The position numbers were made by a program, and so were the translations under genes. Below are positions 55 to 31,061 of a DNA stretch of 38,087 nt, in pieces; the first letter of the stretch is position 1, and every line of letters starts with the position of its first letter. The notes under the pieces are model-generated. The model worked only from the letters and a program-made list of their open reading frames with translations, did not search any database and was not told the DNA's origin. The stretch is taken from IMG/VR virus record IMGVR_UViG_3300045738_001380, positions 1 through 38,087 of that record; one strand, given 5' to 3'. The stretch comes from a virus.

Positions 55-3000
55 CTATAAATTCTTAATAAACCACACATTTTCAGCGCTATAATTTGCG
101 ACATACATCATATCATTTTTTAAACTATGTATCACCTCGGTTGGATACGTGTCTACAGCCATCGTATCGTCAAACGTATTATTTTGGGGGTCTAATATAG
201 AAACGGAACCTTGAGCATTGACGTTATTTTGATGGTTTGTAACCAATATCTTGTCTACCATTGGCGCATATGCGATCCCATGTACTCCTTGTCCCACTCC
301 ACTATTGATAACCTTTTCAACCACGTTCTCCTGTGGATTAATTACACTTATTATGCTATGATAAGAATGCGTAACGTATATTCTGTCGTTTGATGGGCAA
401 TAAATAGTCTTATCTGACTCAGCAGGAATGGGAATCAACTCTACTTCTTCTGTAACTGGATCTAAACAAGTTAAATTATTATTTAATGGATTAGTTATAT
501 AAATTTTATCATTTGAGGGGCAAAATACTCCATAAACACATCCGCTAAGATAGCCGCTTGGCTTGAGGGTCGTCGATTCGTCGAAATTCTCTGGATTAAT
601 TACATTAATCGAAGCTTCTCCGCTATTTACAATATAAATTCTGTCATGTCTAGGAGAATAAATAGCACCCACGGGATTGACTCCGACATTAACCCTGTCA
701 ACTTCTGCCACGGTATCCGGACTGATACCCGTAGGTCTTAAGACGCTTACGTCATTAGAATCAAAATTGGTAACATATAAAGATTCGTTTGATGGGCAAT
801 AAACTATATCTGTTGCGCCCGTGCCCTCAAGATCTATATACCTTTCGACACTTCCTCCCGCATATAGGCCATTCTGAGTGGCTTCAATATTAAAAACGCC
901 TACTTGTCTATGATCTTTAGCTGCGATGTAGATTTTATCATCTAACAAAGAATAAGCCATGTTGTATGGAGACCATACTGGCGTAGGATTATTGACAACT
1001 GTTGGAGCTTTGTTACTTTTTAGAAATTTAAAAGAATTATCATTAAATATATACCCAGTAGGTCCACCATCTATTCTCATATAATAATCTGTATTAAAAT
1101 TTAAATTCTCAGGGAAAAAATATTCGCCTTGGCACGTGCTCTTTCTGGAGTCGACAACAACATTGCTAAAATTTGTATCACTTGCTATTTCAAAATATCC
1201 TCCATCATTAGCTAATCCTCGTCTAAATGATTGCTGCGTCGGTTGATTAGCGTCTAAAATTATATAGTCAGCAACATTTACGGCACCACTAGATTGATGA
1301 AGATCGCTTGTTTTTAAAATAGATTTATGTATGTAATCACTTGTCCTATATGGATTTAAATTAGGTCCCGTAGAGCCCGTTGGGCCAATTACTCCCTGCG
1401 CCCCAGTCGGTCCAACTACAGCAGAAGAATCGCCAATGGGTCCCGTGACCCCCACGGAACCAGTCGCCCCAGTGGGACCAGTGGAGCCGCCTTCTTGATT
1501 GTCTGGTCCGATGGGCCCAGCGGGCCCTATTGGGCCATCGACACCAGTAGGCCCGATGGGTCCCGTTTCTCCTCGCTGATTATATAAACCTATTACCCAA
1601 TCTTTAAAAGATACGTTCTGAAAATTAGTCGCTGGCACTGTTGAAAGACATTCTAATGTTATACTTCCGTTCGTAGAATTATAAGACTCTACTTCTCCTA
1701 CGTATCTATGAGCATAACCAGACAGGGCTCCTCCAGCATCTCTAGCATCGTTAGAGATAATAAATCTTTGTCCTTCTGTATAAGAAAAATACGGGTTTAC
1801 TTCATAGGTTCTTTGTTGTCCCACACTCGGAATTAATTCGTAATTACTCGTAACAAAATAGTCTTGATACACATCTCCTCCAAAACCTGTGGGCCCTGTA
1901 GGCCCAGTCGTTCCTACCGCCAAGCTCGAACTACCTTGTGGCCCCGCTAAGCCTGTTGGGCCTATGGAGCCAACCAAGCCGGTAGGTCCCAGATCTCCCG
2001 TATTTCCCGCTGGACCTTGAGGCGTGATTCCAGTAAATCCCGTAGATCCTATGGGTCCAGTAGGACCTGTAGGTCCTTCTGGAAAGGGGCCCGTGGGACC
2101 CGTGATTCCTTGCGATCCCATATTATAATTTATTGGACCAGTATATCCAGTAGAACCAGTGTTGCCGATGGGGCCAGTGTTGCCGATGGGGCCTATTGCT
2201 CCCGTGTTCCCTACGGGGCCAGAGGGCTTTTCCCCTTGAGGACCGACGGCACCAGTAGGACCCACTATTCCAACCCCCGGCGGGCCCCCTGATCCTGCTG
2301 ACCCTTGAGAACCTATAATGCCCTGAGGTCCAGTCGAACCAGTATCTCCCGTGTCTCCTTTCGGGGGGCCCAAGGGGCCAGTGAGTCCAGTCAGTCCTTT
2401 AGGACCCGTTACTCCAATTACTCCCGTGGTTCCTATCGGACCCGTGGGTTCAACGCCGGTTACCCCCACTGGTCCTTGTTTACCTATCGCGCCTTCTAGA
2501 TTCGTAGATAAATCTGTTCGTGACACACCATGCATGCTACCGACTGTAGCAAGGACTCTGACCTTTAAGTGGCCCGTTACATTATCATATTCTTTAACTT
2601 CGGCCTTGTAATAAAGCGGTTGATCTTGAGGGGACCAATAGACGGTCTTAAAGGAAACCATGATAATTGATCCAGCCGTATAAGCTAAACCTCCATCTAC
2701 CTCTAGCTCTACTAAATCTCCAGCAGAAGGCATAGACCAAGAAGAACCAGACGCCGCGCCTGTACGAGACGCATACTTATCCGCTAATCGTCCTATGAGC
2801 CCCACTGGTCCAGTAAAACCTTGGGCTCCCGTAGGACCCGTCCATCCTAGTACGTTATCAGAATCTCCAATATCCCCTATAGGACCAGTAGGCCCAATTT
2901 TAAAATTAGGTTGGATATATTGAGATTGTACAATTGATTTAAAAGTAAAATCGCCTGTATTAACGTTTAGATTAATTCCGGTCTGTATATTATAACTCAT
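55..3000 (-). CDS. Collagen-like fibre protein with C-terminal YVTN beta-propeller
   Basis: 981 residues. Three collagen-like blocks of Gly-X-Thr/Gly-Pro-Thr repeats (about residues 35-70, 168-375 and 470-545) alternate with two globular domains of about 95 residues (70-167 and 375-470). Each globular domain contains a Y-T-x-G-Q type core and a strand ending in W-x-x-x-L. Residues 545-660 form another domain with the phrase [12 protein letters not shown]. From about 665 to the end come repeats like [10 protein letters not shown]...SVINP, the signature of YVTN/NHL seven-bladed propellers. Collagen stalks with terminal propellers suit a trimeric virion fibre or appendage; receptor binding is inferred. 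The start overlaps the end of the preceding small gene, suggesting translational coupling. It is a paralogue of the gene at 3192-6125. Confidence 0.9.
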
Positions 3001-3191: not shown

Positions 3192-6125
3192 TTATTCTAT
3201 AATTGAAACATTATTTGACACTTGATTTACAAGATAAACTCTGTCGGTACTTGGTGAAAATGCCATGCCCCTAGGATTAGTACCTACAGCCAAAGAGGTT
3301 ACTACTGGGGTAGTAGTCGCGCTCGGATTAGTATGCCAACCAGATCTGGGGTCTATCAAGCTAACGCTATTTCCACCAAAATTACTGACGTAAATTCTGT
3401 CTAAGTTTGGGTTATACGCTAGATTAACAGGATTTGCTCCCAGCCCACCGGTAAAATAATTAAGACTGTCGGAATGAGGATTAAGCACATAGACGCTTGT
3501 CGGTGAAAAATGAGTAATGTATAATCTGTCATTAGACGAACAATATAAAATATCAGTAGGCCAATTAGTAAGTTGTAAAGTCTTAATTACTTTATTAGAA
3601 ATTGGATCGATTATAGACAAGCTACCCGACTGATAATTGACTACATAGATTTTGTTATTTGATGGGCAATATTCTAAATTTCTCGGACCTATTCCAACGG
3701 GGATAGTTGCAATCACTGTTGAATCAGCTGGGTTTATTACGCTTACGGAATCAGACCCCTTGTTAGCGACATATAATCTATCATTAATTGGGCAATAGAT
3801 TATCCCAAACGGCGCATTTTGTACTGTTATTGAAGCTGTTACAGACCCCGAAGATGGAGTAATAGCAAACACGCTACTCCCCGAAGAGCTAGTCACGAAA
3901 ACTTTATCTATAGAAGGGCAATAAGTCATTCCCTGAGGATTCGTTGGAACGTTGACTGATATAGAAGCGGATAAAGATTCTGTTTGTGGGTCGATAATCT
4001 CTATTTTCGGAGAACCTCCCCACGTAGAAACATATATCTCGTCTGTGGATGGCACATATACAGCATCAACAGGATTAGAATTGACGGATATTCTCACGGG
4101 ATTTGCGCCAGACATTTTTTCCGATGGAGCCCTAGAAATCAAATTAAAGCTAAAAGTGTTATCTGGTACTGCTCGTCCATTAATTCTTAAGAAGTAAGTT
4201 GTGCCAAAATTTAAATTTGTTCCGATGCTATCCTTGTTAGTCGTTAATCTCTGCCTCGAATCATAAGAAATGTTTGAAAAATTAACATCCGAAGCTATTT
4301 CAAAATATTTTCCTGCATTGCCAATATTTCTTCTTATAGCTTGCAAGGTTGGTTGTGTTGATGTCAGTTCTAAATAATGAGAAGCTATCTCTGTTCCATC
4401 TAGTCTCTGCGTTGCGGAAAAAGGAGAAGTAACATCTGCTGCATACGCAGAGTTGCGAAATAATCTTTCGATAGCAGATGCGCCCGTTGGACCTATATTA
4501 CCAGTAGGCCCGATGGAACCAATAGCGCCAGTAACGCCAGTGGGACCATCTGGTCCAATTGCGCCTATCGAGCCCTCGCTTCCTTCCGGCCCTATTGGGC
4601 CAGTAACGCCAGTAGAACCAGTAACCCCAATAATACCTGTTGCTCCAATTGGTCCTGTAGCACCCTGTTTACCCACGGCTCCATCTAAAAATATGCTCCA
4701 ATCATTAGTGTAAGCGCCCGAAGAAGTACTAGATATACAAGTGGTGTCTATATCGATGTAATGTGGAGTAGTTGTAAATTGTTCAGTGACTACTGTTATA
4801 TCTGCAATAAAATTATTACCAACAGAATTATAAACTTTTAGTCTTTGTCCTCTAATAAATGTAAATTTCTCGGCATCTTGAATCGGCGTAGTTGCGCGAG
4901 TTGATATTCTCAGTGTTCGTGTTTGAGCAACGGCCGGAGTAATTATATTTGAATCAGACCAAGCTGAATATAGTTCTCCATCATTTCCCGTCGGTCCAAT
5001 CGGGCCTATAGATCCTCCCGGTCCTGCATTTCCTATTGCTCCTGTTGGACCTATGCTTCCTTGCGCTCCCGCGTTTCCTCCCGGTCCATCGTTACCTGTT
5101 GGTCCGATAGAACCAGTAGGCCCAGTAAACCCTGTTGCTCCCGTTGACCCTATGAGCCCCTGAAGACCTATGGGACCTACGGCGCCTGTTGAACCCGGAG
5201 GGCCCGCAATTCCTTGAGGACCTACTGGACCATTATTTCCAGTTGGTCCCACCGGGCCTTGAGACCCCACTACTCCCGTTGGCCCTGCGTTTCCCTGTGG
5301 ACCAGTAGGACCATTTGCGTCTCCCGTTTCGCCAGTTGGCCCTATGGGCCCAACGTTTCCCGCAGAACCTGTTGGTCCTATTGCCCCTACGTTTCCTGTT
5401 GCTCCTATTGGACCAGTAAGACCTGTCGAACCTATTGGCCCATCATCACCTTTTACTCCGCCGCCGGGCCCAGTTGCTCCTTGCGTACCAGTTTCTCCCG
5501 TGCTCCCAATAGCTCCCTGTAATCCTTGAGGCCCGGTTGGCCCAATTGGTCCGACCCCCCCATCTGGACCAGTGTTTCCAGTTTGTGCAACGGCCGCTCT
5601 TAAATTCATTATCCAGTTAGTAAATATTGTTGAGCTAGCTGAGGAGCCCTCTTGACCATTTACTGTTCTTGAAATTACTTTTATATTTATAACGCCCGTG
5701 TTTGCATTGTAATCTTGGACTTCTGCTACAAATAAATTATTTTCATCATAGGTTAGGCTTCCTCCTGATGTAGTAGCAGATAAACTTATAGCTTGTTGAC
5801 CGGGCGTGTAGCCTAAATTAACATCTAATTGTAAAGTTAATAAAGTGGAAATAGCAGGCACTTGCATGCCTCCAGCGACAAGAAATTCAGATACGTAAGA
5901 ATCTCCCGGGGGGCCCGATGGCCCCGTAGGACCATAAGGTCCAAATAATCCTGTCGGCCCAGTAGGACCTCGCGCCCCTTGGGAGCCTTTAGGCCCAGTG
6001 GGTCCCGTGGGGCCCACTAACCCCGGCCCCTGAATAGTCGGAAAAAAAACTTCCGTTATCTTAGGGTCTGCATTAGGATCGCCAAGAGTTACTTCTACTA
6101 CTACATTTTGATTTATTCCAGTCAT
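3192..6125 (-). CDS. Collagen-like fibre protein with C-terminal YVTN beta-propeller
   Basis: 977 residues with the same layout as the neighbour at 55-3000. A short N-terminal head is followed by collagen-like repeats (33-75, 180-385, 480-550) interrupted by two globular beta-rich domains (about 75-178 and 385-478). A domain at 555-670 contains YFEIASDVNFSNISYDSRQR. About seven YVTN-type blades run from 675 to the end, each with a phrase such as YCPSNDRLYI or VFVTSSSGS. The collagen triplets are mostly GPT, GAT and GST, rich in threonine as in bacterial and phage collagens that lack hydroxyproline. It probably forms a long trimeric fibre. The two-gene tandem suggests duplication followed by divergence of the tips. 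Confidence 0.9.
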   Translation of the reverse strand: MTGINQNVVVEVTLGDPNADPKITEVFFPTIQGPGLVGPTGPTGPKGSQGARGPTGPTGLFGPYGPTGPSGPPGDSYVSEFLVAGGMQVPAISTLLTLQLDVNLGYTPGQQAISLSATTSGGSLTYDENNLFVAEVQDYNANTGVINIKVISRTVNGQEGSSASSTIFTNWIMNLRAAVAQTGNTGPDGGVGPIGPTGPQGLQGAIGSTGETGTQGATGPGGGVKGDDGPIGSTGLTGPIGATGNVGAIGPTGSAGNVGPIGPTGETGDANGPTGPQGNAGPTGVVGSQGPVGPTGNNGPVGPQGIAGPPGSTGAVGPIGLQGLIGSTGATGFTGPTGSIGPTGNDGPGGNAGAQGSIGPTGAIGNAGPGGSIGPIGPTGNDGELYSAWSDSNIITPAVAQTRTLRISTRATTPIQDAEKFTFIRGQRLKVYNSVGNNFIADITVVTEQFTTTPHYIDIDTTCISSTSSGAYTNDWSIFLDGAVGKQGATGPIGATGIIGVTGSTGVTGPIGPEGSEGSIGAIGPDGPTGVTGAIGSIGPTGNIGPTGASAIERLFRNSAYAADVTSPFSATQRLDGTEIASHYLELTSTQPTLQAIRRNIGNAGKYFEIASDVNFSNISYDSRQRLTTNKDSIGTNLNFGTTYFLRINGRAVPDNTFSFNLISRAPSEKMSGANPVRISVNSNPVDAVYVPSTDEIYVSTWGGSPKIEIIDPQTESLSASISVNVPTNPQGMTYCPSIDKVFVTSSSGSSVFAITPSSGSVTASITVQNAPFGIIYCPINDRLYVANKGSDSVSVINPADSTVIATIPVGIGPRNLEYCPSNNKIYVVNYQSGSLSIIDPISNKVIKTLQLTNWPTDILYCSSNDRLYITHFSPTSVYVLNPHSDSLNYFTGGLGANPVNLAYNPNLDRIYVSNFGGNSVSLIDPRSGWHTNPSATTTPVVTSLAVGTNPRGMAFSPSTDRVYLVNQVSNNVSIIE

Positions 6126-7032: not shown

Positions 7033-8199
7033 TTAGGCCCAACGATAGACCATACCAGCGACAGCGCGACCATCGATGCAAACGCGACCCTCTTCCATGA
7101 AACCATAGAAGCCAGCGCGATCAGCACGATTTAGGTTGAACTGGTCATCCGGAAGAGCGGTAAATGTTGCTCCACCTTCAGATTGACGAGCGAGCGCACG
7201 AATAAACGCACCCTTGCTATTGTCAACTCCAACCATGATCTCGTCATCGGCATTAACGAAGGTTTGTACGTCGTATCCACCACCGTTTGTAGTTCCGGAA
7301 AGCCCTGAGGCAAATTCCGAATACAATTTGTTGTACTTCTTGGCTAAGCCAAGCTCTAACAACTCAACGATGTTTACTCCGTAGATTTCTTGCATACCAG
7401 CATTGCGGTAGATGTCCTCTCGCATTGCGTCGGGCAACGGGATATCCGTATTTGAGCCCTTGGTATTCATTGGATTGAACGCGAACGAACGAATCTTCTC
7501 TTTCAACTCTGGGCTAACGTACAGATCGGTAACACCGTTGCTGTAAACGTCAGCGGGAGTTCCCTGCGCGAAAGACTCATTGAGCCTCTTCATGCGAGTA
7601 AGCAGCCTGCTGAAATCAGCAAGCAGCAAATCGGAAACTTCCGCACCAGCAGTTTCCTGCGTGGATGCACCACCGCAGTGGAGAACATGCTTCGTTTGGT
7701 TGTGAATCGATGTCTTCGTGTTGGCCTCGGCCAAAGCCCGAAGGATAACAGCCCAAGCATTCCGCTCTTGCTTTAAGAGCACTTCTTGAGACATTCTCTC
7801 GAGAGCCTTGCTAACAACGTCTAAGCGAGACTTGCGAGCATAACGCTTTAAAAAGCTAACCGCACTATCAATACGATAAGTAGCGATTTTCATTTCTGCA
7901 ACGCCTTCGACTTGTGAACTAGGAAGACCACCGGCCATGTTTTGAGACCAGACACTAACGTATCCAGCACCCTCATTGTAATACAAATCGAGCGGGTAAG
8001 ATGGGGAATCATCCTCATCAAACTCAGAGTCAGTATAAATAGCACTGGCAGTGCCAGCAACATTTAGTACTTCCTGAATTACCGGTCCGAGAAAAGCTGC
8101 AAAAGCCTCTTGCGCTTCGCGCGATTCAGTTGCATTTCTAGAACCAAGTGCTTTAACAAGCTCGACTTGTTCAGGTGTATTTTTTAATTTTAATTTCAT
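7033..8199 (-). CDS. Major capsid protein (putative)
   Basis: 388 residues, a usual length for HK97-fold capsid proteins. The N-terminal segment has charged helices. The middle is helical (SAVSFLKRYARKSRLDVVSKALERM...LLKQERNAWAVILRALAEA), resembling the spine helix and P-domain of HK97-like capsids. Later come DLYVSPELKEKIRSFAFNP and a C-terminal strand ending in DGRAVAGMVYRWA. It follows the protease/scaffold and decoration-like genes, the canonical order, has a strong AAGGAG ribosome site, and is followed at once by a terminator. Codon use is richer in G+C than in neighbouring genes, as is common for highly expressed capsid genes. Assignment rests on position and general pattern rather than a diagnostic motif. 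Confidence 0.8.
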   Translation of the reverse strand: MKLKLKNTPEQVELVKALGSRNATESREAQEAFAAFLGPVIQEVLNVAGTASAIYTDSEFDEDDSPSYPLDLYYNEGAGYVSVWSQNMAGGLPSSQVEGVAEMKIATYRIDSAVSFLKRYARKSRLDVVSKALERMSQEVLLKQERNAWAVILRALAEANTKTSIHNQTKHVLHCGGASTQETAGAEVSDLLLADFSRLLTRMKRLNESFAQGTPADVYSNGVTDLYVSPELKEKIRSFAFNPMNTKGSNTDIPLPDAMREDIYRNAGMQEIYGVNIVELLELGLAKKYNKLYSEFASGLSGTTNGGGYDVQTFVNADDEIMVGVDNSKGAFIRALARQSEGGATFTALPDDQFNLNRADRAGFYGFMEEGRVCIDGRAVAGMVYRWA

Positions 8200-8213: not shown

Positions 8214-8804
8214 TTATTCATACGCTGCCGGATTGAAGTCGATTAATACATTTCCGTCTAGATCGGCCTTGCCTAAGCAACGACCAACTGTAACGCCTTG
8301 ACCAGCAACCACGGGTGTAACACCCATGCTCCCATTTGTTGAGAGTACTACGTTTGCTCCGGCCGCCGCTGTTCCGACGAATCCATCATACAGAATCAGC
8401 CCCTGTCTTAAAATGGGGACTACCTGTCCGCTAACTGAGGCTTGCATTTCTGCAGCCTTTCTTGGGTTATAAATCAATAACTCGCCATTTTCATCAGTAT
8501 CTCTTACGTCATGTAAAAGCATGCCTAACACCCTATCGGTAGCTAGACCTGTATGAACATGAACCTTAGCTTGCACAGCGAAACGAGGACTTACAGTATT
8601 ATTGTAAGTCGCTGCTTGCGCGTGAATTGTCTCTTGAGTAAGCTCATCTGTAGCTTCCCAGCCTGCTGTGGGAACAAGGGCAACTAAAGTGCCTTTATTC
8701 ACCGGCAGAGACTCGGTAGCTCGAGCTTCAAGAGAGAACAAGTTAAGAACATCATATTCATTATACTGTCTGAAAGGACGAAGATCTCTATCAGTATATG
8801 CCAT
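8214..8804 (-). CDS. Head decoration-like protein
   Basis: 196 residues. The sequence is beta-rich with many small residues (VNKGTLVALVPTAGW; ANVVLSTNGSMGVTPVVAGQGVTVGRCLGKADLDGNVLIDF). The 'vtvGrclgkad.dG...v' ending resembles phage capsid decoration proteins and DUF2190-type products that sit between protease and capsid genes. A Shine-Dalgarno (AAGGAA) precedes the ATG, and the capsid gene starts 14 bases downstream. A role stabilising or decorating the capsid surface is inferred from order and composition. Confidence 0.6.
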   Translation of the reverse strand: MAYTDRDLRPFRQYNEYDVLNLFSLEARATESLPVNKGTLVALVPTAGWEATDELTQETIHAQAATYNNTVSPRFAVQAKVHVHTGLATDRVLGMLLHDVRDTDENGELLIYNPRKAAEMQASVSGQVVPILRQGLILYDGFVGTAAAGANVVLSTNGSMGVTPVVAGQGVTVGRCLGKADLDGNVLIDFNPAAYE

Positions 8805-8829: not shown

Positions 8830-10440
8830 TTAACGACTAATTGTGAACTGATCTAAACTAAAAGCCCTTCGGTACTTGTCATGTACTGATGGCTCTGCAG
8901 CGTCTGTTGAATTCGGAATCTCCGAACCCTCTTCTGCTTCAGCTTGATCAACAGCCTCGTCTACTACTTTAGAAACGTTATCCGTTTCTTCGTCAGTGGT
9001 TGACTCAGCATTTAAAACTTCTTCCTTTTTGTTGCTTTCAACAGTTTTTGTCTCAGCATTCGCTTTAACTTCAGCTGCTTTAGCTTCAATATCTTCAATA
9101 ACTTTTCTATTTTTGGCCGACATAAGAACAGCCAATTTTTTAGAAAACGCTTCGAAGTCCTCATCATTCATCTCCTTAATGTCAGAAGCAAGCACTTCAC
9201 GATCTGCATCGTTAAGCACGTATTCCTCATCCATATAGGACATTCTTTGATTGAATTTTTCCTCGGCTTCCTTAGCTGCTCTCTCGGCTTCAAGCTTCTC
9301 CAAAGTGGCTTTGATCTTCTCGGTTTCCTCAGTAAGAACATTATGCTCTTTCGTGAGATTCTCGAATTTCTCTTTGCCTTCTTCGATGGCCTTCTTGTGA
9401 CCGTCGCGCTGTTCGGCGTAACGTTCTGAAGCCTTTTGCAACTCCTCCTCTACGAAGGTAGTAATAGCCGAGGCGTTTAGAGTCTGAATAGACTCATCTG
9501 TAATATCTGTTAATTTCTCAATTTTCATAATATCATTGCTCTCGGTTTTTGTTTCGTTTTTATTATTATATTGGGATCCTTTACTTTTGTCCCACCGTTT
9601 TTTATTAGTTTTGGTTTTGGTTTTGTTTTTTTTGGTCGAATCATCTAATTCGTTCTCATCTATTTGTTTCTCGTCGTTTTCTTTAGGTTTTTTCGTAACT
9701 GCCACTCCCTCAACTTCCGCTGCGGGACTGTTGGTTAGTCCTATTCCCAAAGGAACGATGTCATTAATTACTTGTCGATAGACAAATCGGTCATCGTCAA
9801 GTTTGCCGTCTCCCCCAAAGCACTTTAAGTTATCTTTGAGAGATTCAACTTTTTCCGGATCATCAATGATGTCCGCACCTTCTAGGTTTTTGTTGTCACC
9901 GACTACAACCACAAGGTTATAGTCAGTAAATCCTAATTCCCAACTAGCTGATACGCTAAGGTACCTGTCACTAGTTGGGTCTGCTGATTCTTCGATGATG
10001 TCGGTCAAGTCAGTATTGACGACCTTCCAAAGGACGCCCCCCAACGTTATATTGAACGGTCCATCTAGTTCCTTGACCTGCTCGTCAGATAAAGATTTAT
10101 CTGTTCCGAACTCGCTGAATCCAGCGGTTAAAATTGTTCCCAAGACCCTTTGTCTATTATGTTCTATATTAATAGGCTTATTTATAAAGGATTTATATAG
10201 CCTCATAGCGGTCTTCGTATCTATTACATCTCCATTTCTATTGATACGATTTGCTACGCAAGCATTAAAGGCTATGGGTAAAAGATCTATGTTCTTCTCT
10301 GTGTCAATGTCAGGAAGGAAGTTACCTACGTCCAGTAAACTAGCCATCGCTAGATATTTATCTTTCTCTTCTGAAATTAACGGCTTGATTGTCGAGCTAA
10401 AAATAGTTGTGTATTTATGCATGTCTAATATACTATCCAA
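8830..10440 (-). CDS. Prohead protease fused to a scaffold-like coiled-coil tail
   Basis: 536 residues in two parts. Residues 50-250 resemble phage prohead maturation proteases: a conserved-looking His in KPINIEHNRQRVLGTI (His94) and a serine cluster in YLSVSASWELGF (Ser162-166) could be the His/Ser catalytic pair of the herpes-assemblin-like fold. After a Lys-rich linker (about 255-300), residues 305-520 are highly charged and helical (KAIEEGKEKFENLTKEHNVL onwards), typical of a scaffold. Such fusions let the protease clear the scaffold inside the prohead. The marked start overlaps the preceding gene; an alternative ATG lies 18 bases downstream (MHKYTTIFSS), just past the upstream stop. The protease call is from pattern only. 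Confidence 0.7.
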   Translation of the reverse strand: MDSILDMHKYTTIFSSTIKPLISEEKDKYLAMASLLDVGNFLPDIDTEKNIDLLPIAFNACVANRINRNGDVIDTKTAMRLYKSFINKPINIEHNRQRVLGTILTAGFSEFGTDKSLSDEQVKELDGPFNITLGGVLWKVVNTDLTDIIEESADPTSDRYLSVSASWELGFTDYNLVVVVGDNKNLEGADIIDDPEKVESLKDNLKCFGGDGKLDDDRFVYRQVINDIVPLGIGLTNSPAAEVEGVAVTKKPKENDEKQIDENELDDSTKKNKTKTKTNKKRWDKSKGSQYNNKNETKTESNDIMKIEKLTDITDESIQTLNASAITTFVEEELQKASERYAEQRDGHKKAIEEGKEKFENLTKEHNVLTEETEKIKATLEKLEAERAAKEAEEKFNQRMSYMDEEYVLNDADREVLASDIKEMNDEDFEAFSKKLAVLMSAKNRKVIEDIEAKAAEVKANAETKTVESNKKEEVLNAESTTDEETDNVSKVVDEAVDQAEAEEGSEIPNSTDAAEPSVHDKYRRAFSLDQFTISR

Positions 10441-10967
10441 TTTCGCCTGACAAAATCTGGCGCAGTTTCCATATAAAAATCATCTGGACTCTTTGCTCTC
10501 GAAACGTCCAAGCCGCTTTTTTCTACATCTTCTTTGGCTTGGTTAAAATCTGATTGATTTGGCAACCAACATGCAGAGACATTTAAAGAACGCCTAGGCG
10601 GGGTCATAGAATACTCAAACACATGCTCATTTGCATTGAAAATTCCAGACTTTAGTTTCAGAAAAGAAATAACCCTCGCTAAACCAAGTTCGACGAGGGA
10701 TAAACCGTTTTTGTTTTCTGCGCGTACGCCCTGCATAAACATTCTCTTTAATTCATCGACAGAGACTTTCTTGCGGGGGTGAGCCTCATTATGAACTTCC
10801 ATTTTTTGCTCAAATATTTTTACTACTTCGATAGAGAAAGCAATCAACTCTTCTTGAACGAGAGCCTTCTTTTTTTGATGACATGAACAGTCACAACCCT
10901 CTTTGCAAGAATCGCCGCACTCGCATTTTTTAGCGGCTCTAATTTGTGATGTAAAGTCAATTTCCAT
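10425..10967 (-). CDS. Unknown protein with an N-terminal cysteine cluster
   Basis: 180 residues. Residues 15-30 hold six cysteines and a histidine (KKCECGDSCKEGCDCSCHQK), a likely zinc-binding knot. The remainder is helical with a region VSVDELKRMFMQGVRAENKNG and ends NWIVY. It lies between a terminator that closes the GTPase gene and the protease/scaffold gene, whose start it overlaps by 16 bases. The C-terminal CDCSCHQK string resembles CKCKCHRK at the end of the 58-residue protein at 32305-32481. I do not recognise the family; a head-assembly role is only suggested by position. Confidence 0.7.
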   Translation of the reverse strand: MEIDFTSQIRAAKKCECGDSCKEGCDCSCHQKKKALVQEELIAFSIEVVKIFEQKMEVHNEAHPRKKVSVDELKRMFMQGVRAENKNGLSLVELGLARVISFLKLKSGIFNANEHVFEYSMTPPRRSLNVSACWLPNQSDFNQAKEDVEKSGLDVSRAKSPDDFYMETAPDFVRRNWIVY

Positions 10968-10987
10968 TTAATAGAATCTAATTAAAT

Positions 10988-10995
10988 ATTACACT
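10988..10995 (-). promoter_or_regulatory. Candidate phage promoter box (AGTGTAAT)
   Basis: The minus strand reads ATTAGTGTAATATTTAATTAG just after the terminator at 11030-11074 and 20 bases before the next start codon. This gene needs a promoter because the upstream transcript should end at the terminator. The same ATTAGTGTAATA string occurs before the fibre operon at 26523-26530. A host-like alternative, TTGAAA with an 18-base gap to TGTAAT, is also possible here. Confidence 0.35.
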
Positions 10996-11029
10996 AATAT
11001 TATCTGCTTTCTTTCAAAAATACTAATAA

Positions 11030-11074
11030 AAGACACGAAAAGCCCTTCCGATTCAAAATGAACCGAAGAGCCCC
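11030..11074 (-). terminator. Rho-independent terminator after the FtsZ/tubulin-like gene
   Basis: On the minus strand GGGCTCTTCGGTTCA pairs with TGAATCGGAAGGGCTT around a short T loop, with one bulged base and a few G-T pairs. T-rich DNA (TTTTCGTGTCTTTT) follows. It stands between the stop of the GTPase gene (11101) and the next gene start (10967). Confidence 0.8.
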
Positions 11075-11100
11075 TACGTCCTATTTATTTTAACCCCGCT

Positions 11101-12258
11101 CTAAAGACCACCCAGTCTTGCGAGTTCTTTTAATTTTTCCTGTGGTCGATCAAGTCCACCGACAGAAGTAAATACCGTTAAAGTGGGCTTATCCCCCACA
11201 TAAATACCACCATGCACAACACTATCATCGCTAAGCATCCTATTCAACTGGCCAAATGCCTGATCAATGTTTGACTGAGGAATGTTGTCAAGCTGTTCTT
11301 TCCCGCCTATAACGACGGCCGCCGCGCATTTGCCCGTGCTAAGATCTACCCCACCTGAAAGCAGGTTATTTTGTAAATTTTCTCTTACGGCGCGAGAAAT
11401 ACTAACTGGATCTTTCCAATCCTCTACAGGCGAAGCACCGAAACTCATCAATCCAGAGTCTAAAATACTTTTATAATCATTTGAATCGAAGGACGTATAG
11501 CTGCTGTCTCTTGCGGTAGTCAAATTAAATAGATGAAATAATCCAGCCATACTCATGTTTGCAGTTTGCCAGAAATTCGAGACGACAAGGTTGGGGTAAA
11601 GTTTGCTAATTTTTTGATTATCCAGAAGAATAAGAGGAGAAACTATCCCCTCTTCTACTAGGTCATAAACTTCATTTAATGTGGCATGAGCATTTGCCGC
11701 TGTACGCTTACCCTCTGTAATTTTGGGTAAAGCTAGGATCACCCCCACCTTTTGAGATTGGGAGCCTAATGTCGCTTGTAATTCTTGGGCGGAACGAGCC
11801 AAATCAGAAACTATTCCTGCTCCTGTGCCGCCTCCTGCTCCAGCGCATATAAAAATTCTATCAAGCTCTTCTCCGAAAGAATACCTCATAAAATCTAGTA
11901 CATCTTCCTTTCTATTTGAAAAAGCTTTTTTTGCTACTGCTCTATCTTTTCCTGCGCCACCATCTCCTATTAAAAGTTTATTCTCTAAATCAATCGTATT
12001 TAAATCTTGCTCCGCAGTGTTCAAAGCGGCGACCCTTCTATAACCCAATTTGTGGAATGTCTCTGCTATGCGAGAGCCCCCTTGACCAGCACCAATAAAA
12101 GCAAAATTAAACGAAACATCTACTTCGTCTTTTATTTCTTTCTTCTCTACTGCTTCGGGCGGGAGAGGCACAAGCATGTCAGGTAATGAAATATCAACGG
12201 GTGACATTTCCCCGTACATGGCTTTTACTTTATCTTCTGAATTTTGATTTTCTTCCAT
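11101..12258 (-). CDS. FtsZ/tubulin-superfamily GTPase
   Basis: 385 residues. After an acidic 48-residue N-terminal extension, the GTPase core shows the T1 loop GAGQGGS (56-62), an N-T-A-x-x-D element (80-85), a T3-like LIGDGGAGKD (96-105) and the tubulin signature GGGTGAG (142-148). A T7-like segment FDSNDYKSIL keeps two aspartates (258, 261) at the positions that trigger GTP hydrolysis in FtsZ filaments. Length and motif spacing suit a full GTPase plus activation domain, so it should polymerise; no FtsZ C-terminal peptide is seen. Unlike known phage tubulins (PhuZ, TubZ), which usually lie outside head modules, it sits between portal and protease/scaffold genes and starts one base after the portal stop. 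Head positioning, DNA positioning or a structural role are possible. Confidence 0.88.
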   Translation of the reverse strand: MEENQNSEDKVKAMYGEMSPVDISLPDMLVPLPPEAVEKKEIKDEVDVSFNFAFIGAGQGGSRIAETFHKLGYRRVAALNTAEQDLNTIDLENKLLIGDGGAGKDRAVAKKAFSNRKEDVLDFMRYSFGEELDRIFICAGAGGGTGAGIVSDLARSAQELQATLGSQSQKVGVILALPKITEGKRTAANAHATLNEVYDLVEEGIVSPLILLDNQKISKLYPNLVVSNFWQTANMSMAGLFHLFNLTTARDSSYTSFDSNDYKSILDSGLMSFGASPVEDWKDPVSISRAVRENLQNNLLSGGVDLSTGKCAAAVVIGGKEQLDNIPQSNIDQAFGQLNRMLSDDSVVHGGIYVGDKPTLTVFTSVGGLDRPQEKLKELARLGGL

Positions 12259-12259
12259 G

Positions 12260-14395
12260 TTATTTTTTCTCTGCTTTACTAGCCTTTAAAATGCTAGCCA
12301 AGTAATTGTCTACTTGGTGTTCTGCTGCTATCTCCATGACTTCATTAAATACATTCTTATTTACACTCGTATTCGGTTTCTTGCAATAAAGTTCGGCTTT
12401 TTCGATCCAATTCTCCGGTTTCTCATTAGAAATAATTAACTCCGTTAACGACTCTGCTACTTCTTTTTGCGACTTATTTAATCTTTTTATCTTATGTCTT
12501 GCCCGAAGAGTTTTCTCTATTTCTTTATATAATTTTGAGGCTAAAATTAAATTATCCTTTATCTTATCTAAACTGAAAAATCTTGCAGCCGTCTTTGATT
12601 GAGGCCCCTGACCTCTAGGAGATACGGTCTTTGTGGATTGGGGTACTCCTGTTCCCGGGGGTCTACCGACTGGTTCTTTCGTTCCGGGTGGCGGAGGAGC
12701 GCCTCCACCGGGTTGACTTACTTGTTTGTCTGCTATTTTTTCTTGTGTTTTTGCCGTCTTATCTGCTAGCTTTAATTGATTTTCTCCTGTTTTATCTGCT
12801 ACCTCTATCTGCCCCTCTACTTGACGATCAGCCATTTCTAATTGGGTGTGTGGTCCTCCTGTTACTGGTTCATAAAGACCCTCGTCCTTAGCTTCTTTGT
12901 ATCTTTTTTGAGATTCTTCAGATTCTTCTGGCGAAGGTAGTCTTCCAGTTTCATGCGCCTGAACAACTTCTTCAGGAGTAAGTAGCCCAAATTGAGCCAA
13001 TTGATTCCAAAGTCTTCCGGCTTGGAATGCGTCTTTTAATAAAATCTTATTAAAGTTTGGAGTTGGATAACTTCTGAAACCAAGGGCCTTAGCAATTCTT
13101 TTAATTTCTGGCATCAGAAATTCTTCTATAAACGACTGTCTTCCGTGATTTAATCTAGCGATAAATACATCTGTTTTGCTAGCTTGATTTGAAAAGGTTT
13201 CTCCAGAGAATAGTATATTATTTAATCCAACATTGATATCTTTCTCAACCACTTCGTATTTTCTGGGATCAAGCAGATCTGCAATTTTTGGCACCACGAA
13301 CTCAGCTTTAGTAGTATAATCAGAAATTAGAACCCTGCCCACAGATTCATTTTCAAAAAGTCTCTGCATAGCTACCAAATTCTTTTGATTAATTCCACCT
13401 TTATCTGGTTCGGCCCCCATGGTTACTAGAAGAATTGCTTGTTGCATTGTTCTTAGGATGGCAGCGTCCATCTTCTTCATTTCGGCTTTTAAATTAATGT
13501 CATCTAATACTGGAAATCCCATGGGGACAGCGAAGGGTTCATAATCCTGTTTCTTATAGAAAATGACTATCATTCTATCCGGGTCTAAAGGAAGTAATAA
13601 AGAACTAACTCTACCATCTTTTATCTTTTTCCTTGTATCTGCGTCTAGATTTCTTAAAATTTCTTCATCTTCCTCAGTATAAGGTTTTCTTAATCTTTCT
13701 AATTCGTAATCTGTGATAGCTTTAGAATATTTCCCCTTAGCAAAAGAAGCTGAGCCCTCCATTTGTATGTCGGCAGGATTAAGAATAAGGTATCTAGCTG
13801 GAACAACCAGCTTTTTAACATTGGGTGGGCCTACTAATTTTTTAGAAGATTTTGGAGGATTTGTTAAAACTAGATCTGTATAATTTTCGTCACCACCGCC
13901 AAATATTTGAGTAATTCTCCTTACGTCTTCTTTTCTTAATTTTGCTTCAAACCTATAAACAAATACATTTCCGCTCCTATAGTATTCCCTAAACCATCTG
14001 TCTTGAAATTGTCTTAATGCTATTTTTTTAAAAAAAGCATCGAAGAACAGTCTTGTTTTTTTAGTGCCCCCAGTAAAATGTATTTCTCCGGTAGAGAATT
14101 CTGTCATTAGGTCTATAATATTTCTAAATGTTGAAAAATTATAATATGCCTTTTGACACAAAACCACAGCGTCCCTTACGGTGACGCTACTAGAACTAGA
14201 CATAGAAGACGAGTTTTTGAAAGGGATTAGGCCATTACTAATATTCGCAAATCTATTTACGCTTTCTATTTGAGAAGTAATGTTACTTCTTACGCGGGTA
14301 GACTCCGTAGTTCCGCCCATAGCTCCTTGCGCGGTGAGAGGAGTTATTTCCTTCGCTCTCGGCCTTCTCTTTCGTTTTGAGTTTTCGTCTGCCAT
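12260..14395 (-). CDS. Portal protein
   Basis: 711 residues. The centre carries portal-like features: YRSGNVFVYRFEAKL (about 140), VPARYLILNPADIQ, DPDRMIVIFYKKQDYEPFAVP, and the long-helix stretch DINLKAEMKKMDAAILRTMQQAILLVTMG. This is followed by VGLNNILFSGETFSNQASKT and EFLMPEIKRIAKALGF. The C-terminal 200 residues contain a repeat (QLEMADRQ, QIEVADKT, QLKLADKT, QEKIADKQ), a Pro/Gly-rich linker and a charged helical tail. The portal forms the dodecameric DNA gate and works with the terminase. No clear Shine-Dalgarno precedes the ATG; the region is AT-rich. Confidence 0.88.
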   Translation of the reverse strand: MADENSKRKRRPRAKEITPLTAQGAMGGTTESTRVRSNITSQIESVNRFANISNGLIPFKNSSSMSSSSSVTVRDAVVLCQKAYYNFSTFRNIIDLMTEFSTGEIHFTGGTKKTRLFFDAFFKKIALRQFQDRWFREYYRSGNVFVYRFEAKLRKEDVRRITQIFGGGDENYTDLVLTNPPKSSKKLVGPPNVKKLVVPARYLILNPADIQMEGSASFAKGKYSKAITDYELERLRKPYTEEDEEILRNLDADTRKKIKDGRVSSLLLPLDPDRMIVIFYKKQDYEPFAVPMGFPVLDDINLKAEMKKMDAAILRTMQQAILLVTMGAEPDKGGINQKNLVAMQRLFENESVGRVLISDYTTKAEFVVPKIADLLDPRKYEVVEKDINVGLNNILFSGETFSNQASKTDVFIARLNHGRQSFIEEFLMPEIKRIAKALGFRSYPTPNFNKILLKDAFQAGRLWNQLAQFGLLTPEEVVQAHETGRLPSPEESEESQKRYKEAKDEGLYEPVTGGPHTQLEMADRQVEGQIEVADKTGENQLKLADKTAKTQEKIADKQVSQPGGGAPPPPGTKEPVGRPPGTGVPQSTKTVSPRGQGPQSKTAARFFSLDKIKDNLILASKLYKEIEKTLRARHKIKRLNKSQKEVAESLTELIISNEKPENWIEKAELYCKKPNTSVNKNVFNEVMEIAAEHQVDNYLASILKASKAEKK

Positions 14396-14433
14396 TTTAT
14401 TATTATATTTTTAAAAATTTATTTTTTCCATTA

Positions 14434-17400
14434 TTATGGATGAGTTTCTGTTGTTATGCTGCTATCTATATATCCTATTAGAGAAGAATACGCCTTAACG
14501 GTTATAGAGCTTCCTTGTATATTAATTGGGCTTGAATATAAATATGAGCTAGATGAGGGAGCGGTACCATCCAATGTATAATAAATATTTGCGCTTCGTG
14601 TTTCTGGCGAGGGCACCGTTGCGTTCATTGTTATAATAAGCGTATTTGAGCCCGTAGCTGCAATACTTACAGTGGGGGCTGAAAGTTGTTGTCTCTGGTA
14701 TTGTACTATCTCTGAATCTAAGTAGACGTCTGAAAAGGCATAAACCTTCAAAGTCGTGCTATTATTGAATTCTGACGTAGTTAATGTATGTATAAAATCT
14801 CCGCTATTGGGCACTAAAGTTACAAAGTTATAAGTGCTTCCGCCGCTCGGATCCGTCCCATCCGTAGTATACCTAACGGTGAGATCTCCTACAGAATCTT
14901 GATCCCAGTTAGGAATAGTAATATCCGGTCCATAGCTAGCATTTGTCTCAGCTGATACTATCGGACCGAGCTTGACTAGTGGATATTCTCCAGTAACAGT
15001 ATCAGAATCTACATATCCATAACCAGTAACTTGAGTAACTATTCTAACTTTGTTTTGTAGCCCAGCTATATCAGGTGGAAAAGCCGCGTCTGGAGTAGTT
15101 TTCGTACTTATTTCTGCACTGCGATAAGCTAAATTTTCATTCGTGTCTAATTGGCTATCATATAAATTTCCTAGATCAAATGTTACGAAGCCAACGGTCC
15201 CGCAACAATTGTCGCTTCCATATGCGCTTGGCACAATGCCATCGTAATAAGCTTCTGCGCCACTGTCGCAAATAGAACCAAACACCAATAATGATCCATC
15301 AGATTTTAAAATGGTCCCATGATCTTTTCCAGCAAAGATTCCAATTCCAGTATTTATGCCCCCCGGAATAGTATCTGAGAAGGATACGGAAGCTGATCCA
15401 TCCCAAACAGTGCCCCAGCCGGTTACTGAACCATCAACTTGTAATGCTAGCGCATGATCATTGCACGCCGCAATAGAAACTACGTCTTTTAGATCAGACG
15501 GTACGTTCGCCGCTTTCTCTACATTGCTTAGCGACCCCCAGCCCACAACATCTCCATTTCTTTTCAATGCAAGGCCAAAGTCTCTTCCCGCAGCAATCTC
15601 CATAACATCATCTAACCCAGATGGTATTCCTGTCACGCCAATCGGAGCACCCCAGCCGGTTATTCTACCATCTCCCAGAAGAGCCAAACTATGGTTGTTC
15701 CCCGCTTTCGTAGATATAGCTCCACGGTCTCCACTTTGGTAAGATGTTAACGGGGTGGGCACATCTATTTGTCCAGAGTGATTTCTGCCCCATGCCCTCA
15801 CAATTCCTCCAGCCAACAAGCCGAGACTGTGGTTTTCTCCTGCAGAAACAGATATTACATTGTTTAAATCGTTGGTAATATTACATTGACCATAGTCATT
15901 GTTTCCAAACGCTATAACCGTTCCATTGGTCTTAAGAACTAAACTATGCTTGTCGCCAGCAGAAACATCTTGAGCATTTGTTACTCCCGAAGACATTAAC
16001 TGAGAATTGGAATTATCTCCCCAGCTTACTAATTCCCTATTACTTTTAATAGTTAAAGAGTGATCTTTTCTATTTGAGTATTTAGAGACCCTACTATCTC
16101 CGGAATAATATTCTAATTCATTTACTTGAGTATTAAGCAGTACAGAATCTCCTTGGCCTATGATTCTATAGTTATTATAAAAATTATTGTTGGTAAAAGT
16201 AGCAGAGCTTAATGCTACTGGTAATCTAGCGATTGCAGATGCATATTCTGTGGGAAAAGATTCGCCTGCGCCCCCCGCTAGATCTAAATCAGCCCAGCCA
16301 GTCAGCCAACCGTTCGTCCACCCTGCTTGGAGAATGAGCGCCCCCGCAACCAAGCAATCACCATCGCTGTCATATTCCCTAAATCCACCTGATGATATAT
16401 TGCCAGTAATTACACCCGGGATAGGGCCAACCAGATAGTGACCAGAATCAAGTTCGCCGGAGGCCCCCTGTAAACCATAATCCATACCGCGATAGGGGAA
16501 CGAGCAGCCTTGAGCGGGGCACAAAGAGAGCACGCTCCCCTTTACACAGTTGATGTACTCTCCGATTACCCCGTTCATTTGGGTACCTCTGCTGGACACG
16601 CCCGGTACGGGCCTCGCATTCAAATGCCCAGACTCGGTGCCATTACTATTAAACATATAAAACTTATCAGCCTTAAAGTCGTGGTAAGTAGACTCAAATC
16701 GATACCCAACCGGCCCTATCTTATGGTTATAATAGGAAGCTGCATACGAACGGTTTATGCCATTTTGAGCTTGATTGGCTTCGTCCACGCTTCCTCCTCC
16801 AGAAATATCTACTATGGGTGCATTAGTGTAATTTTTACCTCCGCTACTAAGCAACAATCCAGTCAAATTACTGGGGGCTTTTGTGCCTACTGCGATAGCT
16901 CCAGCACCTTCGTCGCCCGCAGCAGCAGTCAAAGTAATATCCGGGAAAGCCCTATAACCTGCTCCGCCACCATCCAAGTTGATGCCCGACACTGAATGAG
17001 ACAAAAGAGCTTTGCCTGTAGCAGGGGCAGCAGTTGTGCCTCCACTAAAAACAACTAAAGGATCATTAGTGTACCCAGTTCCAAAATTCGTCATTTCAAT
17101 TCTATCTAAATCTCCACTAGTCAAGAAAGCTTCTACTTTGGAATGTTCCGGCATTAGCGCCTCAATATTTACCCACTCTCCTAATTTAGTTTCAAAATTT
17201 ATACGATTAGCAGAAGTGGCGCTATACATATCATTAGTATGCATTTTCGTTAACTCCAAATCAGGGACGAAGAACTCTATTTGCTCGTGCGGGCGCGTAG
17301 TTTGAGTTTCGTCGGAATGAATACCCTTGCTGTACACGTCTTTCGGATAGCCGCAAGCAGTGCAGCTTTGGTGGCCGTAGGTTTGGGTGTTCCAATCCCC

Positions 17401-20400
17401 CCCGACGTAAGACCACGCAAGCTTTCTAACGCCACAGTACCACATGCCGCGGTAAAGGGTATCAAAGGTACAACCATTCCCGCTATCGAACTGCCCGGTG
17501 TTGTGTTCCCAGTAAGCCTCCTTTACAATAGGCAAGGATCTAAAATCAAAATCAGGAGCATCAATCTCTGGATAATCAGAATTGTAATTGTAAAAATCGT
17601 TATTAAGTCCAGTTTTCGCAGTAGTAATTACCATATGGCAACTGGAAGTGTTGCAGGGGTTCGTTCCTCCGTATCCTTTTCCCCAGTCCAACATGGTAAT
17701 CGATTCGATCCCTGAAGTAGGATTAGTAGATCCTCCGGCATCCGGGACGTTAATATATCCATAACCAGTTTTTTCAGGAAAGCAATAGGCGCTACTTCCG
17801 GGATCACAGGTAGTTTCTGGGAAATAGCATATCAATTTATCCACATAACCGTGCCCGCGATACTGGCTGAAGTTATCTTTCCAGCCTTCGGGGTTGGATG
17901 CGTAGCCGTTCTGTGGAAGGGGCCCAAAGGCGAATGCCGATGCCGAGGTATCTGCCCATCTTGGAAGTGGCGGTGCAGCGCCAAGCCTCCAGTCAACGCC
18001 TAAAGCCCAAAGCGCTTCTTGCGCGTTAGAGGCTGAAGTGTTAGACCCGTTTGTCATACCTAGGACTCTACCAATTCTCATGTGGTCGAAGAATGGATGA
18101 CCACCACCCTCAGGGCTGACGTATGTGGCCTCACCTTGCTCTGGAAACGGGATTTGCATACGGTCATTATCACTAGAACTTAAATATTTATTTGCGAGAT
18201 AATAACCACTACTGCCTATATAATTTGGATATGATCCCCCATCCGAATAATAAACACCGGTTAACGAGCTTGCGCATATACCAGCGGGATTACTAGACGA
18301 TGCAATGGGCGCGCCTGCTGAGCTAACGCCACTTCCCCAGAGGCATTTCCAACCATTCCCAGAGTAAGGATTCCGCCCAGCGGGATCTTCTAAAGCGTGT
18401 AACGCAGCATCTTCCCAATCGTGATTATTTGCATTAATCCCATCTCCACTTCTGAAAGTTGCTCCAGTAGGTTCAATCATGAACATCATCCCCGGGAAAG
18501 ATCTATCGAATTCTTCCGTAATGGTTGGCGCGCTAGTGTAGCCATTTCCAAGCCCAGTTATGTGCAATTTGTAAGGAATTAGGGTCGCGTCATCATCTGG
18601 TAATAATCCGCCCTTGGAAACAGTTGTGCTCCATAACAATTCTTCATAACTTATATCGTTTATATCATGGGCATTAACATTAGCTGAGGAATTGAGAACG
18701 TCGGGGTGAGAATAAAGACATAATAACTTGTCCAAAAGCGAATCATCATCAGTAAATCCTAAAATTTCATTATGATTTCTTAATTCTACATAGCCTCCCA
18801 TTCCTTGTCCTCCACCACCAGTAATATCTATGCGTTGTTGCGTTGCTGAATCCTTGTGAAATTTCAAACGATATAATCTAGATGTGGCAGAATTTTGTGA
18901 GTAAAGTAAGTTACCCGGCGTACTGTGACACGCGCCTTGCGCGACCGTGCCGCCCCCGCCTACAACACAGCCAGCCGGATTTCCCGGAAGGCCATGTTCG
19001 AATTCTCCACTAAATGGAGTGTTGCTGTTATATGGTATATGCCCAGCGCCAGTAAATCCCCCGTACCAGTGGGCCTCGTAATTAGCGTAATCAAAGAACA
19101 CGCGAAAAGGAGTAATGACATCCCATTGGCCAGACAAACGGTTTTTAAAATTGTTATCAAAGTATCGATAAAGGTCACTAGCGCCAGTACCGTAATTAAG
19201 AGAATGATCTCTCAATATGCCCGAGTGATAAGCATGATTTTGTAATTCATCTAAATCTAATTTTTCATCATGCCATGGTTGCAAAGGTAAAACTCCATCG
19301 ACAAAGCCCTGATCTATTGCGCTTTCAATATGTTGGCCGCTAGTAGGACCTCTATCGCCAACAGTTATTTTAACCGCGTACATTCTATTAGGTTGAGTTA
19401 TGGTCCCTCCGGCGAGGCTAACAGTTGGCGCCGAAGTATAACCTACTCCTACGTTATCTATATCAAAATGATCTAATTTAAATACGCCAGTTGGGACAAG
19501 ATCAGCATTTCCTCCGCCATAACCACCGCCCCCGCCAAAACTACCTATGGTTGGAGAGCCTATCCCGGGAACTCCAACGCCATCATAAACATGATAACCG
19601 TATGGAGGATCATAGTTGACATTACCTATAATCAAGCCGCTTGAATTGAGTCCCCCAACAGAAAAGGCGGTTAAAAGTGCCGTGGCTGCCGCGCCTTGTC
19701 CTCCTCCATCTGTAAAGCCTACTGACGGCGCGGTTCTATATGGAACTCCGTGTTCTATAATTTCAACGCCGGTTATCTGAGTTGGAGTAAGATAAGCCAC
19801 TGCTGTTGCTCCGGCTCCAAATGCGGAGCTTGAAGTTGGTGCGCTATTATTATCTACGCCTGAAATAGTTACTATTGGAGTAGACGTGTAGCCCTCTCCT
19901 TCGTAGCCGGTACATGGATATGGAGTGGGTGGACATCCCCCTTGACTATCATCAAAATCTAGAGAAATTCCATGTACAACTCTCTCGGCTGTTAATACTG
20001 CTGTGCCAGAGGCTCCTGCCCCCCCATCAACGGAGGTCATAGTCGCGATAGGTATATCATTATAACCAGTACCTCCCTCAACCATTTGAAATCCTGCTAA
20101 ACCAAATGGCGCAAACAAAGCTTTTGCTTTAGCTCCCTCTCCCTCTTGGCCCATCGCCAGAATAAATCTTATTATAGGATCGGATGAATATCCAGCCCCC
20201 GAAGAGGTCATCTTCAAAGAAGCTAGCCTATCCAAAGCCTCGCCTTCTAAAGATAAAAATGCAGGATAATTATCTGGGAATTTATTCGAAAAGAAATCTA
20301 TATCATCCCAATTTACATTATCGTTTGAGCCCTGTATAACTCCTGCTCCCAATTTATGATAATCATCTGCATTTGTAGCAAAACTTATTTTAGTAACTCT

Positions 20401-30374: not shown

Positions 30375-31061
30375 TCAATAAAGGTCTATCTCTCCATCCG
30401 CTAGCATTTTTTTGACTTTCACAAGTATATTTTTCTTAATGTTCTTTATGTGCTTGTATCCCGGGCCCCTATTCTTCTCAGAGGTAGAGTAACCCAAAGT
30501 CTTGGCTAGCTCTTTTTCGTCCTTGCCCTCTATATATAAAAATTTGTATACTTGCCACTCTAAAGGTTTTAAAATTAATTCCATTCTTTCATGCATATGT
30601 TCGGCAGTCTTCTCTATATCTATAGAATCCTCAAATTTACTTGAAACCTCCTTAGTGTGGTTCTCTAGGGGTAAAGCTAACTTAGTATCATGAGCACGTT
30701 TCTTAAATTTCTCCCAATGAGCATAAAGAGGACACTCCGCGCATTGTTTTGTATATATAGTACATAGATCTTCTCCTTCGGCAGCGGCACATCTTAGACA
30801 TGGTCTAGCGAAATTTCCATAATGATTCCTGATTAAATTTTTCAATTGATTGGAGATTATACGATTAATCCATGGGAGGATAGACTTGGAAGAATCGTAT
30901 AAAGTCCATTTCTTATAAATATGTATACGAATAATCTGAGAAACATCATCGAAATCCATCCACGCTAACGCGGTTAGATTCCACTTGTTCCTTCGCTTCG
31001 CTATTTCAGTGTCTATAACGTCGCTATAGTCTTCGTATGTCGGAGGTTTCTTCTTAGTCAT
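30375..31061 (-). CDS. Sigma-like transcription factor with cysteine insert
   Basis: 228 residues. Residues 33-85 match sigma-70 region 2 in pattern (WMDFDDVSQIIRIHIYKKW...ILPWINRIISNQLKNLIRNHYG): an acidic start, an amphipathic helix, then W-I-x-x-I-x-x-N-x-x-x-x-x-I-R. Residues 160-220 resemble region 4 (LEWQVYKFLYIEGKDEKELAKTLGYS, then KHIKNIKKNILVKVKKML), a helix-turn-helix. Between them are five cysteines (88, 91, 100, 107, 110) in a C-x2-C...C...C-x2-C arrangement, probably zinc-binding. It would direct host RNA polymerase to late phage promoters, like T4 gp55, but with two DNA-reading regions. It overlaps the zinc-ribbon gene by 8 bases. Confidence 0.78.
   Translation of the reverse strand: MTKKKPPTYEDYSDVIDTEIAKRRNKWNLTALAWMDFDDVSQIIRIHIYKKWTLYDSSKSILPWINRIISNQLKNLIRNHYGNFARPCLRCAAAEGEDLCTIYTKQCAECPLYAHWEKFKKRAHDTKLALPLENHTKEVSSKFEDSIDIEKTAEHMHERMELILKPLEWQVYKFLYIEGKDEKELAKTLGYSTSEKNRGPGYKHIKNIKKNILVKVKKMLADGEIDLY

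Follow-up and report, generated by a model that had tools for sequence, protein, structure and literature searches.

A tubulin-like GTPase encoded in the head-gene module of uncultured phages

The window tubulin and its described relatives

Proteins of the tubulin/FtsZ superfamily bind GTP and polymerise, and the known phage tubulins belong either to plasmid-like partition or to very large, nucleus-forming phages. TubZ is the tubulin of the TubRZ type III partition systems found on Bacillota plasmids and in some prophages. PhuZ, likewise a phage tubulin, is encoded by the phiKZ-like nucleus-forming phages and has a proposed role in the positioning of capsids and DNA. CetZ is the haloarchaeal form, and Bacillus phage G encodes an FtsZ-like protein. 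The phiKZ TubZ is described as having a C-terminal helix and tail and no significant N-terminal extension; in PhuZ this helix is H11, which bears an acidic knuckle (PMC3678025).

The DNA analysed here, called the window, is a 38,087-nucleotide stretch of a viral genome (IMG/VR record IMGVR_UViG_3300045738_001380). The initial annotation had placed a tubulin-like GTPase at 11101–12258. These coordinates are right, and the gene lies on the minus strand. Its 385-residue product matches the Pfam Tubulin family (PF00091) beyond chance, with a score of 49 bits (cut-off 33; E 1.2e-12), in support of that assignment. With 63 bits, it does not reach the 295.2-bit cut-off of the FtsZ equivalog (TIGR00065). 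Among PDB sequences, TubZ matches best (4ei7; E 3.5e-15 with the single protein and 2.4e-21 with the family profile), followed by CetZ and FtsZ. The AF2 model, for which 34 family members were the input, has a pLDDT of 86.5 and a pTM of 0.85. When it was compared with solved folds by VIA-align, TubZ 4ei7 (Z 36.5; 2.3 Å over 329 residues) and CetZ2 (Z 35.9) were tied as the nearest, and c-st TubZ (Z 32.8) and FtsZ (Z approximately 31.8) followed.

The nucleotide-binding and catalytic loops that had been read from the ORF are all present. The T1 loop is GAGQGGSR (residues 56–63; 12070–12093, minus strand), within FIGAGQGGSR (54–63), and the T3 loop is NTAEQDLN (80–87). The T4 signature loop is AGAGGGTGAG (A-G-A-G-G-G-T-G-A-G; residues 139–148; 11815–11844, minus strand), and its GGGTGAG motif falls within CAGAGGGTGAGI (138–149). 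The T7 catalytic loop is FDSNDY (257–262; 11473–11490, minus strand), with the two aspartates D258 and D261. No row of the 34-row alignment deviates at the T1 glycines, the T4 glycines or either T7 aspartate (34/34). Within the first member set, the T1, T4, T7 and DN[EQD] patterns were found in 81/81 proteins and the T3 pattern in 76/81. From its sequence and model, we assign the ORF to the tubulin/FtsZ superfamily as a GTPase with intact nucleotide and T7-loop residues. GTP binding and polymerisation are predictions well supported by the fold and the conserved residues.

The nearest sequences are those of plasmid TubZ, with approximately 24–33% identity in 19 plasmid records. CetZ has a similar T1 loop (GxGQ.G) and is approximately 21–26% identical, whereas the window tubulin is viral and sits in a head module. 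FtsZ shares the superfamily, the T4 motif GGGTGxG and the DxxD of T7; four FtsZ references are 21–25% identical, and FtsZ is set apart by the equivalog score and by the tree described below. The best structural match in BFVD is A0A6J5RW92, named 'FtsZ cell division GTPase', from an uncultured Caudovirales phage (30% identity, E 3.1e-34). The phage G protein is 24.7% identical to the family member L066; its gene sits among nucleotide-metabolism genes, and no portal annotation appears in the 17 kb shown.

The phage family differs from both TubZ and PhuZ at the two ends of the chain. The protein opens with an acidic N-terminal arm (residues 1–49; 12112–12258, minus strand), which is of low confidence in the model to approximately residue 40. 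Arm length ranges from 40 to 72 residues across the family. A motif in the arm, D-[ILV]-x-hydrophobic-[PS]-[DEN], usually with I-P-x-P next, is conserved in 47/47 dereplicated members; its form in the window is DISLPDMLVP (residues 22–31; 12166–12195, minus strand). A stricter version was run against the ORFs from ten records, of which seven have a tubulin; it matched six tubulins and no other ORF, and did not catch the tubulin of the relative G010. The C-terminus stops soon after the last strand, with a short terminal helix at residues 373–382 of the AF2 model. At most 26 residues lie beyond the last GG[LI] in the 47 members, and a long C-terminal tail is absent. In this count the window protein and L002 score 0, as they end in GGL, and 16 residues follow the core GGL. 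The PhuZ combination of helix H11 with its knuckle and no N-terminal extension is not seen in the family. The acidic arm could be a capsid-targeting peptide and the gene sits among virion genes, so that a structural or internal virion protein, which retained the fold and lost polymerisation, might be imagined. We find this highly improbable, as invariant T7 aspartates and GTP-loop glycines would be needless for a dead scaffold.

The portal junction and the head module

The gene upstream of the tubulin (12260–14395, minus strand; 711 aa) is assigned as the portal from PHROG matches of its homologues, a weak PDB match to YonE and the Foldseek results. The commonest of the PHROG portal families is matched by 10/19 portal homologues, and the window protein itself matches none of these families. 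The structure model is of low confidence (pLDDT 58) and was used for fold matches alone; all 50 Foldseek matches listed are portals or portal-containing neck or vertex structures. One base separates the portal stop (12260–12262) from the tubulin ATG (12256–12258), which confirms the junction as first described. At the 13 adjacent loci measured, the spacers are 1–6 bases, and a purine-rich stretch was seen by eye before many tubulin starts. With such spacers and such stretches, translational coupling of portal and tubulin is possible, and each start could also be read alone. The claim that the tubulin is closed by its own terminator is backed by folding: a terminator-like hairpin with a T-rich tail lies 3′ of the stop (11030–11082, minus strand; −21.8 kcal mol−1, z −2.9), though a simple consensus terminator scan did not list it. 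The other 16 loci inspected by eye show no obviously shared terminator after the tubulin.

The link to the head module, suggested from the window, proved far stronger when many loci were compared. The synteny counts refer to 126 tubulin loci, after H52 and phage G were removed from 128 rows. In 124 of the 126, a portal gene on the same strand precedes the tubulin, and in the two exceptions (L056 and L059) less than 2 kb of sequence is available upstream of the tubulin. The large terminase subunit (TerL) lies upstream wherever a locus contains it (106/106), and wherever a locus contains any head genes, these lie downstream (75/75). Portal and tubulin are directly adjacent in 100 loci; in 24 of the 124, they are separated by 1.1–5.0 kb of other sequence. 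The inserts, read in 10 loci, are mostly one or more structural-looking ORFs. One insert family of approximately 365–476 aa recurs, and a PHROG scan of three of its members named no family. A portal lock by co-translation, as initially proposed, overstates the link, given the inserts and the existence of relatives without a tubulin. Since structural-looking genes intervene in some lineages, the tubulin does not need direct coupling to the portal.

Four genes follow the tubulin on the minus strand. The first encodes a 180-residue protein of unknown function (10425–10967), which is also present in tubulin-less relatives. A scaffold/protease-like head protein (8830–10440), a decoration-like protein (8214–8804) and the probable major capsid protein (7033–8199) come next. 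These labels are given by position; the scaffold/protease-like gene is in conserved order and has no family match. The capsid homologues match a head family weakly (1/15 hits the PHROG major head family, 9e-4), and the capsid profile found no match in the PDB. Elsewhere on the minus strand are the terminase large subunit (26536–28359), a sigma-70-like factor (30375–31061; 24.5 bits for Pfam Sigma70_r2, cut-off 24) and a head maturation protease of the ClpP type (34319–35068; PHROG 94, E 7.9e-46; Pfam CLP_protease). The sigma factor family is located in the same module in 10/10 records compared. Between terminase and portal, positions 14434–23013 encode a 2859-residue protein that has RCC1-like repeats and matches virion-structural PHROG families. 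An ERCC4-type nuclease with a zinc-finger-like start (28359–29303) lies directly upstream of the terminase in the window and is present in 10/10 records compared.

A phage tubulin with an intact GTPase might also act as a PhuZ-like spindle, with filaments that centre or rotate replicating phage DNA, and its adjacency to the portal would then reflect late expression only. PhuZ places phage DNA at mid-cell and carries capsids (PMC7950403). We nevertheless regard a spindle as unlikely. Identity to phiKZ PhuZ is 20% over 257 aligned positions, and in BFVD the models of the PhuZ type match more weakly (13–16% identity). Chimallin, the phiKZ shell protein, was unmatched in 10/10 tubulin-bearing records in a search that can detect close homologues only, in records that may be fragments; the phiKZ control was positive. 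The gene neighbourhood is also different, and in phiKZ no portal is annotated within the 30 kb surrounding phuZ.

Distribution, selection and phylogeny

With the single protein as the query, a scan of viral sequences found 100 encoding contigs, of which 80 were kept (57–89% identity). An IMG/VR scan with the alignment gave 277 relatives; 80 were kept, and 40 of those were new. By tblastn, the window protein had no match at 1e-3 in 50,697 phage records, and a scan of genome_contigs with the family confirmed no relative. The member L066, when used as the query, matches phage G (two records). Of its other 'phage' matches, the three inspected (H52, H54 and H55) were rejected as bacterial ftsZ operons. 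The records behind these (loci L220, L230 and L231) carry ftsA-ftsZ and cell-wall genes and are probably mislabelled host DNA.

Relatives were also recruited through TerL, irrespective of the tubulin query. This yielded 80 loci, 79 of them new; the portal is present in 57 of the 79 and the tubulin in six, besides L024, which had already been fetched. The tubulin follows the portal in every TerL-recruited locus that has a tubulin. Of the loci that bear TerL and are long enough to be scored, 83 have a tubulin, 22 do not, 25 were indeterminate and 22 have no visible portal. A tree of TerL with 77 rows after dereplication (61 with and 16 without a tubulin) calls for at least four changes, of which strongly supported branches force at least two, and one tubulin-less clade is nested inside tubulin bearers. 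Early presence followed by losses is probably the simplest history, and gains are also conceivable. The family profile at E 1 found no tubulin in 23 records of tubulin-less TerL relatives (0/23), which may be fragments; as positive controls, 10/10 members were found at 625–676 bits.

The tubulin is under strong purifying selection. The median dN/dS is 0.033 for the tubulin (31 independent pairs), 0.0375 for the portal (28) and 0.0795 for the capsid (20); these values are rough, because dS is often near saturation. Together with the 277 relatives, they rule out a chance or degenerate ORF. Across the 41 loci compared, identity averages 65% for the tubulin, 58% for the portal, 67% for TerL and 65% for the capsid. 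In the same loci, the tubulin–portal distance correlation (r 0.924) is the top of six gene pairs, and 0/2000 permutations were as high; the values for tubulin–TerL and tubulin–MCP are 0.825 and 0.812. Physical linkage alone could be sufficient for the top rank of the portal pair. The tubulin evolves like a core morphogenesis gene.

Phages often attack FtsZ, and a protein with an FtsZ-like fold could be a poison of host division, a decoy that co-polymerises with host FtsZ or blocks it. The D-I-P core of the arm may also bear a faint likeness to the FtsZ C-terminal peptide. Such a decoy is very improbable in our view: the protein has its own intact GTPase and stands far from the FtsZ references in identity, its constraint is as strong as that of core head genes, and its location is the head module.

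Among the clusters common to at least 3 of 10 records, no partner gene tracks the tubulin. The tubulin is itself the only cluster present in 6/6 tubulin-bearing and 0/3 tubulin-less long records, and we conclude that no separate partner gene follows it. The cluster closest to this pattern is a collagen-repeat cluster (5/6 against 0/3). The window has long collagen-like proteins with G-P-T-G repeats at 55–3000, 3192–6125, 23404–24882 and 25235–26488; two collagen-like proteins end in repeats that look beta-propeller-like by eye.

A quick tree, to which 10 FtsZ sequences from the candidate host phylum had been added, recovered the phage clade as a single group (SH-aLRT 100), with all FtsZ beyond a branch of support 100. 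Its nearest neighbours there are TubZ and the phage G protein (SH-aLRT 93). The careful tree had no host FtsZ and omitted the long branches of phiKZ and Cetobacterium; it joins the phage clade to TubZ and the phage G protein at 85/75. Alternative sisters were not rejected (p-AU 0.353 with FtsZ and 0.236 with CetZ), and the CetZ grouping is absent from the best tree. When phiKZ PhuZ was kept in the tree, its long branch split the phage clade. The trees thus point to TubZ as the nearest neighbour, not firmly. A recently captured host ftsZ with broken residues had been named as the finding that would overturn the initial annotation. Recent capture was rejected: FtsZ lies across the support-100 branch, genome_contigs held no relative, and the family profile, run against 387 genomes from the phylum of G049, reached at best a partial, FtsZ-like match of 39.9 bits, as against 625–676 bits within the family.

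The likeness to TubZ in fold, sequence and tree raises the reading that the protein is a TubZ-type partition protein, which would segregate an extrachromosomal prophage in a quiescent phase. We judge this quite improbable. In the plasmid tubZ loci fetched, an ORF of 90–119 aa precedes tubZ in 7/7, and in the window the portal occupies that place; the family is without TubR upstream and lacks the long C-terminal tail. No iteron or tandem array was found within 10300–14700, around the gene, although a centromere elsewhere in the genome is conceivable. Integrase and ParA (AAA_31) families were found in 0/12 records, two of them tubulin-less, and the genome_contigs scan noted above held no relative.

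Proposed role and genome setting

We put the chances at about even that the gene encodes an active phage tubulin, in a clade of its own, whose GTP-dependent filaments serve head assembly or the positioning of the packaging site. This reading draws on the fold and active site, the place in the module, the TerL recruitment, dN/dS, the co-divergence, the lack of a separate partner, the sigma factor in the module and the lack of an integrase. The tubulin would be made late, together with the virion morphogenesis genes, and would polymerise with GTP. Its filaments would probably position portal-bearing proheads or deliver them to the DNA-packaging site, and the acidic arm may be a docking peptide for a head partner. 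A precedent is PhuZ, whose filaments bring empty capsids to the site of packaging (PMC7950403). Two observations count against a role in head assembly: the 24 of 124 loci with inserts, which make coupling non-obligatory, and the 22 TerL-bearing loci without a tubulin, which presumably assemble heads anyway.

We tentatively go one step further, to a possibility that we hold to be rather doubtful. The family could be a third type of phage tubulin, made late and acting as a head-module cytoskeleton in phages that form no nucleus (approximately 100–160 kb). Filaments would grow from nascent portal-bearing proheads or carry them to the packaging site, and the N-terminal arm would serve as the cargo hook, a task for which TubZ and PhuZ use their C-terminal tail. 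A large set of uncultured phages encodes its own tubulin-like, probably filament-forming protein in the head-gene block beside the portal, and this suggests a cytoskeleton for head assembly or packaging. If a widespread group truly has a tubulin bound to the terminase–portal–capsid module, filament-driven virion assembly would not be tied to a phage nucleus. The gene set is compact, so that portal, tubulin and arm are testable together, and the relatives with and without the tubulin lend themselves to a comparison that asks why a phage needs a cytoskeleton. That phages encode tubulins was already known; the new element here is that the gene is committed to the head module. A search of the literature by title and start of abstract, with most subscription journals and preprints outside its coverage, found no portal-linked phage tubulin described.

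The 158-kb relative G010 encodes a bacterial-type DNA polymerase III alpha subunit, a DnaB-type helicase and a ribonucleotide reductase. Its genome also holds an IS605 OrfB/Cas12f-like (TnpB-type) protein (L176:8130–9638, plus strand). Two tubulin-bearing records have tmRNA genes (131 and 148 bits), located at L174:3676–4080 (minus strand) in G010 and at L242:10829–11256 (plus strand) in G003. Their predicted tags are unusually long, with 31 and 21 residues, respectively. A 20-base stretch common to both tmRNA 5′ ends has seven matches in the genome collection, all (7/7) titled Verrucomicrobia or PVC group, and ARAGORN reads 6/7 of the matching stretches as tmRNAs. As the overall tmRNA identity is only 45–57%, this stretch is a lead towards a Verrucomicrobia/PVC host, not proof. 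Near the contig end, the window carries a 63-bp tandem repeat in 2.4 copies (37036–37186).
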